A stretch of 64,000 bases of DNA from Terribacillus sp. DMT04 (lineage in GTDB: Bacteria > Bacillota > Bacilli > Bacillales > Amphibacillaceae), in the NCBI RefSeq assembly GCF_019056395.1, contig NZ_CP077639.1, forward strand, positions 1,924,001 through 1,988,000, in the 5' to 3' direction. The translations under genes were made by a program, and so were the position numbers. Shown one piece after another: positions 4,128 to 59,997 of this stretch (its first letter is position 1; each line of letters begins with the position of its first letter). The notes under the pieces were generated by a model. It was not told the DNA's origin. It made no database searches and saw only the letters and a list, made by a program, of their open reading frames with translations.

Positions 4128-4296
4128 CATTTACCAGAAAGTTTCTTAGTCGTCAAGAGACGATAATTGCTTCTTGGGTGGCTTCCGCGGAAGCACTCTC
4201 CAGAGTTGCGTCGTGCTGGAGTTCTTTTGCCTGAGAGATTCACTCAATATTTGCTCCTTCGGCGCCGCATAAACGCGGTCTCTCCTCCAACATTCA
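4128..4296 (-). ncRNA. Tandem glycine riboswitch
   Basis: Read on the minus strand, two glycine aptamers follow each other. Aptamer 1 begins GGAGGAGAGACCGCG, contains GCGCCGAAGGAGCAA and closes with CTCTCAGGCAAAAGAAC. Aptamer 2 begins CTCTGGAGAGTGCTTCC, contains CACCCAAGAAGCAA and closes with TTTCTGGTAAATGGACAGAG. These are the consensus blocks of the cooperative two-aptamer glycine riboswitch, which normally turns on gcv genes when glycine is high. Its place directly before gcvT and the overlapping terminator agree. Exact ends are approximate. Confidence 0.93.
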
Positions 4297-4495
4297 CTCG
4301 CGATTTATGAAATTAGGAAAACGCGGGCATACTAACAGACAATCAACTTATTAAAAAAGCAAAATCCAAACATTCTAATAAATTTATTGAATAATGTTTG
4401 GTTTCAGCATCATTATAACACAACATTTTGGGAAAGTGTCGATCTTTTTATAGTTTTTCCTCTGAAACTCCGAAGAATAAGGAGATGAAACCATT
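4297..4495. other. Divergent intergenic region, gcv operon and yqhH
   Basis: This is AT-rich sequence between the riboswitch leader and yqhH. On the minus strand a TATAAT (4412-4417) with a GACACT or TCGACA 17-19 bp upstream is a plausible vegetative promoter for the gcv operon. I see no clear promoter for yqhH. Its ribosome binding site AAGGAGATG lies at about 4480. Confidence 0.4.
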
Positions 4496-30772: not shown

Positions 30773-30845
<73 letters not shown>

Positions 30846-30849
30846 AAGA

Positions 30850-30942
30850 TGGCGGAGGAAGAGGGATTCGAACCCCCGCGAGCCGTTAAGCCCCTGTCGG
30901 TTTTCAAGACCGATCCCTTCAGCCAAACTTGGGTATTCCTCC
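30850..30942 (-). tRNA. tRNA-Ser (anticodon TGA)
   Basis: Acceptor GGAGGAA pairs with TTCCTCC, discriminator G, CCA encoded. The long variable arm typical of serine tRNAs is present, and the anticodon loop CTTGAAA carries TGA. Confidence 0.95.
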
Positions 30943-30970
30943 GCGTTGCAATATGAAGTTGAAAATCGTA

Positions 30971-31047
30971 TGGTGGACCCTGCAGGACTCGAACCTGCGA
31001 CCGATCGGTTATGAGCCGATAGCTCTAACCAACTGAGCTAAGGGTCC
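30971..31047 (-). tRNA. tRNA-Ile (anticodon CAT, lysidine type)
   Basis: Acceptor GGACCCT pairs with AGGGTCC, discriminator A, CCA encoded, anticodon CAT. A fully paired first base pair rules out initiator tRNA, and a separate elongator tRNA-Met is present in the cluster. The body resembles the Bacillus tRNA-Ile2, whose C34 is changed to lysidine by TilS so that it reads ATA. Confidence 0.78.
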
Positions 31048-31061
31048 AATACTTTTTTCAA

Positions 31062-31136
31062 GGGCGATTGATGGGGATTGAACCCACGAATGCCGGAGCC
31101 ACAATCCGGTGCGTTAACCACTTCGCCACAACCGCC
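31062..31136 (-). tRNA. tRNA-His (anticodon GTG)
   Basis: Acceptor GGCGGTT pairs with AATCGCC (one G-T), discriminator C, anticodon loop TTGTGGC with GTG. CCA is not encoded. The base before the acceptor is T, so the G-1 needed by HisRS is not obvious in the gene if the stem is drawn this way. Confidence 0.93.
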
Positions 31137-31159
31137 ATGTTACAAATTATTAAGATTTA

Positions 31160-31236
31160 TGGTAGCGGCGGAGGGGATCGAACCCCCGACCTCACGGGTA
31201 TGAACCGTACGCTCTAGCCAGCTGAGCTACACCGCC
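31160..31236 (-). tRNA. tRNA-Met, elongator (anticodon CAT)
   Basis: The sequence starts GGCGGTGTAGCTCAGC and its anticodon loop TTCATAC carries CAT. The T arm GGGGGTTCGATCCCC and encoded CCA match Bacillus elongator tRNA-Met. Confidence 0.93.
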
Positions 31237-31237
31237 A

Positions 31238-31312
31238 TGGCTCCACAGGCAGGATTCGAACCTGCGACCGATCGGTTAACAGCCGATAGCTCTACCACTG
31301 AGCTACTGTGGA
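31238..31312 (-). tRNA. tRNA-Asn (anticodon GTT)
   Basis: Acceptor TCCACAG pairs with CTGTGGA, discriminator G, CCA encoded, anticodon loop CTGTTAA with GTT. It is the first gene of the tRNA operon; the Met gene follows after one base. Confidence 0.95.
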
Positions 31313-52412: not shown

Positions 52413-53321
52413 TTAATATTCGTCGCGGCTAAATCCGTAATCATTAAGCTGCGCTTGCTTGTTCCGCCAGTCTGGCTGCACTTTCACCCAAAGTTCAAGA
52501 AATACCTTACTACCAAGCAGCATTTCTATATCTCTGCGCGCAAGTTTACCAACTTGTTTCAGCATACTGCCTTGCTTACCAATAATGATTCCTTTTTGGG
52601 ATTTACGTTCCGTTACAATTGTCGCCTGAATGAAAACTTTCTCGGTTGTGCTATGACGATTCTCAATTGCTTCAATAACCACAGCAATTGAATGCGGTAT
52701 TTCTTCACGTGTTAAATGCAGTACCTTTTCACGAATCAATTCACTAACAATGAAACGCTCCGGATGATCTGTTACTTGATCTTCAGGGTAATACTGCGGT
52801 CCTTCTGGAAGATAGCCCTTTAACGTATCCAATAAATGAGCCGTGTTGTTTCCTTCCAGTGCACTAATAGGAACAATCTCTGCAAAATCCAACTTGTCCT
52901 TATACTGCTCGATAAGTTCAAAAAGCTTATCTGGGTGAATCTTATCAATTTTATTCAAAACAAGGAAAACTGGATTGTTAACCTTCTGCAGCCGCTCAAG
53001 AATGAACTGATCTCCCCGTCCATAGCCTTCCTCTGCATTGACCATAAACATGACAGCGTCCACTTCATTCATTGTGTTTTCTGCAGTCTTTACCATAAAA
53101 TCACCGAGCTTATGCTTCGGTTTATGGATACCAGGCGTATCAATAAAGATGAACTGTGCGTCATCTTGTGAAAGCACCCCTTGAATCCGATTACGCGTCG
53201 TCTGCGGCTTATCACTCATAATAGCAATTTTCTGCCCCACGAAACGATTTAACAAAGTTGATTTTCCTACATTCGGTCTCCCGATGATGGAAATAAAACC
53301 AGAACGAAATTCTTCTACCAT
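52413..53321 (-). CDS. era: GTPase Era
   Basis: The 302-residue GTPase matures the 30S subunit by binding the 3' end of 16S rRNA. G1 GRPNVGKST is at 14-22, G3 [10 protein letters not shown] near 61, G4 NKID near 124, and the KH domain ([21 protein letters not shown], residues 230 on) is C-terminal. The ATG at 53321 is preferred; a TTG six codons earlier overlaps the GGAGG site. Confidence 0.96.
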
Positions 53322-53440
53322 GCTGTTATATTCCTCCAAGTACTAGTACGACAATAACCTCAAGTACTATTAAAATGTTGTATCTCTATCTTACTACAAA
53401 TCCCCCGCCACTTCACCCATTCGACAAAAGGTCTTATTAA

Positions 53441-54185
53441 AATCAAAAGCGGAAAAGGCCGGTTAGAAACGGAACGATAAGTGAGAAGGCCCAGAGTAAG
53501 GCGATTTTCCTTACGCAGGGACTTATCGCTTATGGTGTAGTTTCTGGCCTTTGGAGCTAGACGACAATCAAAAGCGGAGAAGACCGTTTAGAAACGAAGT
53601 GGTAAGCAAGAAAGCCCAGAGTGGGTGCAGTTCCCACGTCGGGATTTATTGCTTACAACGCAGTTTCTGGTCTTCGGAGCTGGACGACAATCAAAAGCGG
53701 AGAAGACCGTTCAGAAACGAAGTGGTAAGCAAGAAAGCCCAGAGTGGGTGCTGTTCCCACGTCGGGATTTATTGCTTACAACGCAGTTTCTGGTCTTCGG
53801 AGCTGGACGACAATCAAAAGCGGAGAGAACCGGTTAGAAACGAAGAAATAAGTGAGAAGGCCCAGAGTAAGGCGATTTTCCTTACGCAGGGACTTATCGC
53901 TTATGGCGAAGTTTCTGGTTCTCGGAGCTAGACGACAATCAAAAGCGGAAAAGGCCGGTTAGAAACGGAACGATAAGTGAGAAGGCCCAGAGTAAGGCGA
54001 TTTTCCTTACGCAGGGACTTATCGCTTATGGTGTAGTTTCTGGCCTTTGGAGCTAGACGACAATCAAAAGCGGAAAAGACCGTTCAGAAACGAAGAAATA
54101 AGTGAGAAAGCCCGGAGTAAGGCGTTTTTCCTTACGCAGGGATTTATCGCTTATGGCGAAGTTTCTGGTTCTCGGAGCTGGATGC
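53441..54185. repeat. Six tandem ~124-bp units, each a long nested hairpin
   Basis: Units start at 53441, 53566, 53689, 53812, 53937 and 54062, each beginning AATCAAAAGCGG and (except the last) ending GAGCT(A/G)GACGAC. Units 1 and 5 are identical; 2 and 3 differ at two bases. Each unit folds as nested stems: outer arm (for example GAAGACC with GGTCTTC), AGAAAC with GTTTCT, an 8-bp stem (GTAAGCAA/TTGCTTAC or ATAAGTGA/TCGCTTAT), CCC with GGG, and a tip stem (GTGGG/CCCAC or GTAAGG/CCTTAC) with a 7-base loop. Symmetric internal loops separate them. Stem changes between units are mostly compensatory. No credible gene lies here. The array separates era from dgkA. Confidence 0.92.
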
Positions 54186-54245
54186 AGAAAACTAAATCCG
54201 AGAACACGTAAGAAACCCCAGCCTCTCTCCTGCCTCCTGTCCTCA

Positions 54246-54277
54246 CAAGAAAAACCGTCCATAAAGAACGGTTTTTA
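54246..54277 (-). terminator. Terminator of the phoH-region operon (after dgkA)
   Basis: AAAAACCGT pairs with ACGGTTTTT around a 9-base loop, overlapping the dgkA stop. Minus-strand transcription should end here, before the repeat array. Confidence 0.75.
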
Positions 54278-54655
54278 CAAAACAGAAAGCAATTCCGGTA
54301 TGAAAACAATCAAGCCGACACAAATAGCGGTAATGGCTGCAACAAAGACAGCACCCGCTGAGATATCCTTGATTAGGCCGACTGCTTTGCTTTGTTCTGG
54401 TGACAGGTGGTCCATCATGAGTTCGACGACTGTGTTAATCATCTCTGTCACGATGACAAAACCGATGCTTAAGAGCACAGCCGCCCACTCTGCTGCTTCT
54501 ATACGAAACAGCACGCCCGCTAACAGAACAAGGAACGTCGCTATTGTATGGATCCGAAAATTCCTCTCATGGACAAATGTCCATCGAATACCGTTCCACG
54601 CATAGCGAAATCCAATGCCGGTCTTAGTTTTCTTCTCGTTTGAGTCCGAAGCCAT
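54275..54655 (-). CDS. dgkA: Undecaprenol kinase / diacylglycerol kinase family
   Basis: The 126-residue membrane enzyme has three helices and the family motif TEMINTVVELMMDHLSPEQS near residue 70, with catalytic E and metal ligands. In Gram-positives this family phosphorylates undecaprenol. It overlaps ybeY by 32 bp. In B. subtilis cdd would follow; it is absent here. Confidence 0.93.
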   Translation of the reverse strand: MASDSNEKKTKTGIGFRYAWNGIRWTFVHERNFRIHTIATFLVLLAGVLFRIEAAEWAAVLLSIGFVIVTEMINTVVELMMDHLSPEQSKAVGLIKDISAGAVFVAAITAICVGLIVFIPELLSVL

Positions 54656-59798: not shown

Positions 59799-59831
59799 TT
59801 GCAGAGAAGCAAGAAAGAACAATTGATGGGC

Positions 59832-59965
59832 AGATCTGGAAGGCAATCTGGAAGGCAATCTGGAAGGCAATCTGGAAGGCAATCTGGAAGGCAATCTGGA
59901 AGGCAATCTGGAAGGCAATCTGGAAGGCAATCTGGAAGGCAATCTGGAAGGCAATCTGGAAGGCA
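59832..59965. repeat. 12-bp minisatellite, about 11 copies
   Basis: The unit GGAAGGCAATCT repeats from 59838 to 59957 ten times without a single change, with a partial copy at each end (GATCTGGA before, GGAAGGCAA after). The unit length is a multiple of three, so it reads as SGRQ or PSRL repeats in chance frames, but no gene is supported. It lies between the yqfB terminator and the yqfC promoter region. Confidence 0.95.
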
Positions 59966-59997
59966 AAAAAGCGAGCCCTTAGCGGACTCGCTTTTTA
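59964..59997 (-). terminator. Terminator of yqfB
   Basis: On the minus strand AAAAAGCGAG(T)CC pairs with GG(G)CTCGCTTTTT, including the yqfB stop codon, and is followed directly by the minisatellite. Confidence 0.8.

Follow-up and report, generated by a model that had tools for sequence, protein, structure and literature searches.

A many-copy folded repeat of Terribacillus sp. DMT04 and its occurrence across the order

The genome of Terribacillus sp. DMT04 carries a folded repeat that is spread order-wide, in about half of the sampled genera, stands behind every 23S end of DMT04 and lacks an Rfam entry. Six units of it form an array in the stretch of 64,000 nucleotides analysed here (contig NZ_CP077639.1, positions 1,924,001 to 1,988,000; hereafter the window). 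We propose, with moderate confidence, that the units are an old non-autonomous folded element, which was once spread by a putative enzyme and is now resident in the host genus. Each unit would be one copy of a non-coding interspersed element of about 115-150 nt, the plus strand of which would fold alone into a long hairpin. Within the host genus the spread would have largely stopped, the arrays being inherited at the same loci and altered by local duplication, loss and exchange of units through recombination. Where the element is transcribed, i.e. behind 23S and at mRNA 3' ends, the hairpin may act as an RNase road-block or as a cleavage site, and such a role would contribute to the upkeep of the fold; RNases should encounter early on any hairpin placed immediately after 23S or a stop codon. 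Cleavage of the hairpin, or a block to RNases by it, would have consequences for the maturation of 23S and for the 3' ends of mRNAs in many species.

The array of the window and the fold of its units

The array (53441-54184, + strand) consists of six head-to-tail units of 123-125 bp each and sits between the genes of Era and diacylglycerol kinase. Tandem Repeats Finder reported a single array (53441-54179; period 125, 5.9 copies, 85% matches), and the covariance model found six units, all on the + strand: unit 1 (53443..53563 by the model span, 53441-53565 by the repeat period; 133.6 bits; folded singly), unit 2 (53568..53686; 128.7 bits), unit 3 (53691..53809; 128.0 bits), unit 4 (53814..53934; 131.0 bits; folded singly), unit 5 (53939..54059; 133.6 bits) and unit 6 (54064..54184; 120.6 bits). 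Each is one long hairpin. The six tandem hairpin units of ~124 bp described in the initial annotation are thus confirmed by the repeat finder, the model and the folds, and the stem variants that it quoted are present in the sequence. Units 1 and 5 are identical, units 2 and 3 are 98% alike and units 4 and 6 are 91% alike, so that the array holds about three kinds. The outer arms of unit 6 belong to different kinds (left AAAGACC, right GGTTCTC), so that its outer stem pairs incompletely and the unit has the look of a recombinant between two kinds.

The gene for the Era-type GTPase (52413..53339, - strand; MMR_HSR1 and KH_2 Pfam domains) starts 103 nt from the array. On the other side, the prokaryotic diacylglycerol kinase gene (54275..54655, - strand; Pfam domain) ends in a terminator-like hairpin recognized by eye (54250..54276, - strand), the loop of which exceeds the limit of 8 in our terminator scan, where it is not listed; because of this hairpin the array is probably outside the kinase transcript. 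The promoter scan gave one match against 0.7 expected. A possible remnant directly to the right of the array (54185..54205, + strand) forms an inverted repeat with the right end of unit 4, 14 bases being inverted-complementary (86%), which may be chance. Elsewhere the window holds a 12-bp tandem repeat (59829-59966; 11.4 copies, 99% matches) inside open frames beside a 147-aa frame, as well as an ordinary glycine riboswitch (4209-4297, - strand) and an ordinary cluster of six tRNA genes (30773-31312, - strand).

Three units folded singly were far more stable than shuffled sequence, with z-scores of -5.1 to -6.0 as RNA and of -5.2 to -7.1 as DNA; the minus strand of unit 1 also folds (RNA z -5.5, DNA z -4.1). 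The initial annotation had described the stems of the six units as covarying. These are not six independent cases, therefore the claim rests on wider sets of units, and in these paired change does keep the fold. In alignment A1, which comprises 24 units of the DMT04 genome with a 37-pair structure and is the basis of covariance model R1, 97.1% of the cells of the fold pair (86.3% in shuffles) and 24 of the 37 pairs show double-sided changes (14.4 in shuffles); on four of five measures 0/500 shuffles reach the observed value, and on the measure "further pair types" 487/500 are as high. Sliding the structure by 1 to 3 columns lowers the pairing to 27-47%. Thirty distinct units from a genome of another genus (G015), with quite different stems, are 97.5% paired with 19 double-changed pairs, and 0/500 shuffles are as high on any of the five measures, in an alignment that was fitted to the covariance model, which favours its pairing result. 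In both sets, paired change goes beyond that of shuffles which do not allow for relatedness.

The strand on which the fold is maintained was addressed in 101 distinct sense units of the host genus (3712 pair cells, 53 nearest-neighbour pairs). The non-Watson-Crick cells comprise 161 G-U, 56 A-C and 122 other mismatches. Between nearest neighbours, 56 single changes lead to G-U, 30 to A-C and 26 to other mismatches, and 16 double changes keep a Watson-Crick pair; the difference between 56 and 30 has a binomial p of 0.007 if the events are independent, which is not assured. As G-U exceeds A-C, albeit modestly, selection seems to favour the plus strand folded as a single strand (RNA or DNA), not as a cruciform. 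The A-C and other single changes (30 and 26), together with the 122 other-mismatch cells against 56 A-C cells, count against the reading proposed here. Three symmetric internal loops keep the form G-N-A on each side, the middle base being free to vary, while the stems change; the left and right counts are 107 and 101, 103 and 92, and 88 and 84 in 107 sense units, and 29 and 30, 24 and 27, and 17 and 19 in 31 units of G015. The second loop of the commonest unit kind in genome G198 is, by eye, without this form. The outer arms of the units pair; the outermost bases do not.

Copies in DMT04 and across the order

BLASTN with unit 1 as query gave 25 matches in the DMT04 genome and R1 gave 47, of which 30 are strong (E <= 2.5e-26), 12 are opposite-strand readings of strong units and five are weak, i.e. 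four part-units in or beside arrays and one match apart (C1:973967). The strong copies comprise 23 units in six arrays (of 2, 6, 2, 6, 3 and 4 units) and seven single copies. R1 matches were found in 80 of 120 genomes and 32 of 46 genera of the family (E <= 1e-3) and in 92 of 199 genomes and 48 of 98 genera of the order (E <= 1e-5), genome G015 alone having 96 (E <= 1e-6). The many-copy family postulated at the outset is therefore borne out by the covariance model search in DMT04 and in its relatives. A phylum-wide draw matched in one of 149 genomes, DMT04 itself; among the genomes listed from this draw only one other belongs to the order and three to the class, hence it mainly shows that R1 does not fire on random hairpins. 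The family, order and phylum searches used stricter filters, which lose weak matches. In most units read from other families, the ends still resemble AAAAGCG and AGCTRGA. A search of genome contigs with an 18-base pattern gave ten stretches, eight from Virgibacillus and Oceanobacillus and two from metagenome bins under other labels, possibly as contaminants.

The seven single copies of DMT04 stand directly behind the seven 23S ends (located by pattern search), one behind each; at locus L012 the order is 23S, element, 5S (rRNAs by Rfam). In the family, AAAAGYG lies within 26 nt of a 23S end in 22 of 120 genomes and 10 of 46 genera (one match in the reversed control), two of the 22 genomes (G054 and G108) looking like chance by eye. 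Of ten such 23S loci displayed, five have a unit that looks complete, three have one that is shrunken or reduced to a remnant (L170, L172 and L178), and the other two are the matches that look like chance. Genome G119 has a further copy between a tRNA and 23S (L037). The 23S-linked site is old or repeatedly hit, and it is not always kept. The rRNA operons of G119 (L046 and L037) hold Bacillaceae-1 RNA (RF01690) and the element together.

Where the upstream gene reads in the same sense, its stop codon is often immediately next to the left end of the element; the frames behind the following counts came from a simple caller. Eight of the 20 sites in genomes G198 and G155 have a sense upstream open frame, and in seven of them the left edge lies -2 to +2 nt from the stop codon, the eighth frame being of 73 aa and 212 nt off; none of the right edges is within 15 nt of a facing stop. 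In G015, ten of 21 sites have a sense upstream frame, four within 3 nt and three more within 12 nt, and the right edge is 35 nt from the nearest facing stop. This right-edge control is blurred, since part-units often follow right edges. Seven of 12 representative sites of the host genus have a sense upstream frame, three within 3 nt, in a count that leaves out a 169-aa frame at L010, three orthologous loci being without that frame. At the other loci from the G015 and order searches, 12 of 22 sense upstream frames are within 3 nt, some of the others being rRNA loci or later units of an array. At 19 of the 41 sites in G015, G198 and G155, as in the window, the neighbours on either side both read against the element, and the orientation of the element to genes is accordingly not fixed. 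The dinucleotide TA precedes the left end at 11 of 21 sites in G015, at 4 of 12 in the host genus and at 4 of 20 in G198/G155; given the latter two counts, a TA target is at best a hint.

Several neighbours of the element serve translation, which may be chance. Era, peptidyl-tRNA hydrolase and YceD adjoin arrays in DMT04, and in three genera (L045, L048 and L053) the gene in front of copies has a ribosomal protein leader of the L31 type. One flanking gene, at locus L011, encodes an aldehyde dehydrogenase. At L073, L088 and L014, terminator-like hairpins behind a D-Ala-D-Ala carboxypeptidase gene lie just to the right of units; by eye, they seem to consist of the element's left end together with the complement of that end, possibly a domestication as terminators.

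Inheritance, dispersal and rival explanations

In the host genus, most units match best at the same locus of another species or within the same array, and orthologous units stand in a different order between species, which together suggest that arrays are inherited and that their units are locally duplicated, lost and exchanged. CRISPR-like growth of the arrays at the left end is unsupported there, as the order of orthologous units differs between species. Arrays of G198 are composed of units that differ in length (about 115, 117, 120 and 146 bases) and in interior but resemble one another at their ends, and at L111 of G015 an array alternates two unit kinds with unlike central stems (period about 241). 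After the last unit, a left-end part-unit was found by strict motifs at 18 of 20 sites in G198/G155, at 5 of 12 in the host genus and at 2 of 21 in G015; by the same motifs, right-end pieces stand in front of one, none and none, respectively. Many last units of G015 are followed instead by a shared tail of about 28 bases, and a second repeat (TTGGCTTGTCGCCAAGAACTAATGGCGAAAGCC...) lies after the tail of several copies, to the right of the unit (L109, L113 and L120). The longer unit kind of about 146 bases (L182 900-1505, also L179, L050 and L051) has an inner stretch, GATAAAGGAAACACGATGAACG...ATGTTGACTTATC, which is common to different genera, and a possible short frame.

One site of G015 has no element at the orthologous position in G074, the genome of a congener, where the gene and terminator are otherwise present; as two genomes were compared, this may be a loss instead of an insertion, and the site is too diverged to show a target duplication. 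In a synteny comparison of G015 with 400 kb of G074, 19 of 20 query loci gave no long match. Outside the host genus, the 96 matches of G015, the arrays of G198 with similar ends and unlike interiors and the one empty site are signs of dispersal. Between the YceD and HIGH_NTase genes, an element is present in two families of the order (L020 and L184); a hot spot or old inheritance would explain this as well as dispersal does. A search for Y1_Tnp gave no enzyme tied to the element, neither an excision product nor a target duplication was found at the sites examined, and plasmids and phages gave no match to one G015-type unit used as query, which counts against mobility, since a still-mobile element might be expected there.

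The element may also not be selfish at all. That it is a host RNA element, i.e. a hairpin which protects or processes RNA 3' ends, is selected by the host and is multiplied by recombination, is possible, if doubtful: its presence at 7/7 23S ends in DMT04, the 23S-adjacent pattern in 22/120 genomes and 10/46 genera of the family (two looking like chance), the plus-strand G-U bias, the left ends at stop codons and the loci conserved across species of the host genus speak for it; however, both neighbours read against the element at 19 of the 41 sites, three of the ten displayed 23S loci hold a remnant or shrunken unit only, and genera differ strongly in copy number and in positions. Selection on the fold would not be needed if palindrome arm-copying at replication (templated mutation) mimicked covariation. 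The excess of double changes is also expected from such copying, which we nevertheless consider very improbable as the whole cause, because it would erase the conserved G-N-A loops, which stay non-complementary in most of the 107 sense units; it also leaves the preponderance of G-U over A-C without explanation.

A new class of cassette-like selfish hairpins with a common fold and common ends but unlike interiors, docked head to tail and left end first on gene 3' ends (stop codons and 23S) by a putative enzyme that would read the folded single strand, RNA or DNA, is an unlikely account of the units; if an enzyme does move them, a new system that reads folded single strands is indicated by arrays whose units are unlike but end similarly. 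Highly improbable is integron-like, site-specific recombination, in which the units would be folded single-strand attachment sites exchanged as cassettes: it agrees with head-to-tail arrays that mix unlike units with similar ends and with a fold kept while the sequence varies, but there is no gene between abutting units, and the common trailing part-units are not predicted by cassette exchange. An element of the REP/RAYT kind, moved by a Y1 tyrosine transposase, is hardly credible. The element is palindromic, intergenic and many-copy, and genes for Y1_Tnp proteins occur in several relatives, some as frames of 180-304 aa; however, Y1_Tnp is absent from DMT04 and from 8 of 10 genomes of the genus, 0/16 stretches around the Y1_Tnp genes of relatives hold a copy, and the unit has several times the length of REPs (20-40 bp) and stands head to tail, not in inverted pairs. 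In the stretches examined, Y1_Tnp is thereby excluded as a general partner. The initial annotation had left the choice between a structured RNA and a mobile repeat; both keep support, and it is the REP/RAYT-like form of the latter that is not borne out. An old, formerly spread element that is now resident in the host genus is the reading that we retain.

Comparison with known families

No family of Rfam release 15 reaches its gathering score over the unit in the whole window, in the array or at 20 of 61 loci, and at E <= 10 the array gave four matches (E 1.3-8.7), far below the gathering scores; the initial annotation, which did not recognize a named family, thus holds for Rfam in the window, in the array at a permissive threshold and at the 20 loci. 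Text searches of the literature, the coverage of which mostly excludes subscription papers, gave no description of the repeat, and an earlier naming is possible. Ends of the type of the DMT04 element presumably also occur, without a name, in Bacillus genomes.

The BOX elements of Streptococcus pneumoniae are modular folded repeats with modules A, B and C, the inner part of which can be tandem. The DMT04 element shares with them a modular folded build; the other host and the separate modules set BOX apart by description. Integron attC sites keep a single-strand fold while the sequence varies and occur in head-to-tail arrays, but they belong to gene cassettes, whereas units of the DMT04 type abut without genes between them. 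Bacillaceae-1 RNA (RF01690) also lies beside rRNA genes; its 67-position model, however, has no match to the unit.

The bcr1-bcr3 repeats of the Bacillus cereus group are short, non-coding, intergenic and MITE-like; they frequently lie within UTRs or operon spacers, are reported to be confined to that group and are tied to a TTTAT motif (PMC3446304, PMC6542083). About half of the bcr copies in that group were found in transcripts, and the decay rate was tied to bcr3 only (PMC3446304). The DMT04 element is likewise short, non-coding, intergenic and present in many copies in Bacillus relatives, but, by these descriptions, it is set apart by its order-wide occurrence, its sites at stop codons and 23S ends and its arrays of unlike units. 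REPs are palindromes of 20-40 bp, mostly in inverted pairs, and GTAG- or CGTC-tagged (PMC3733652). Like them, the DMT04 element is a palindromic intergenic repeat with varied stems. As to the tag, the right ends in the window read GACG (CGTC on the other strand), but those of most other arrays GACA (by reading). Unlike REPs as described there, its units are of about 115-150 bases, stand head to tail and are without a Y1_Tnp link. GTAG/CGTC REPs are thus ruled out on length and transposase link. The stem-loop families of an earlier survey include Bhal-1 of 74 bp (PMC2267715). In size and in the absence of a conserved frame, as judged by eye, the unit falls within the bounds given for MITEs (70-300 bp, no coding capacity). 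Short folded interspersed repeats are a well-known kind of element, to which the DMT04 repeat adds a family without an Rfam entry.
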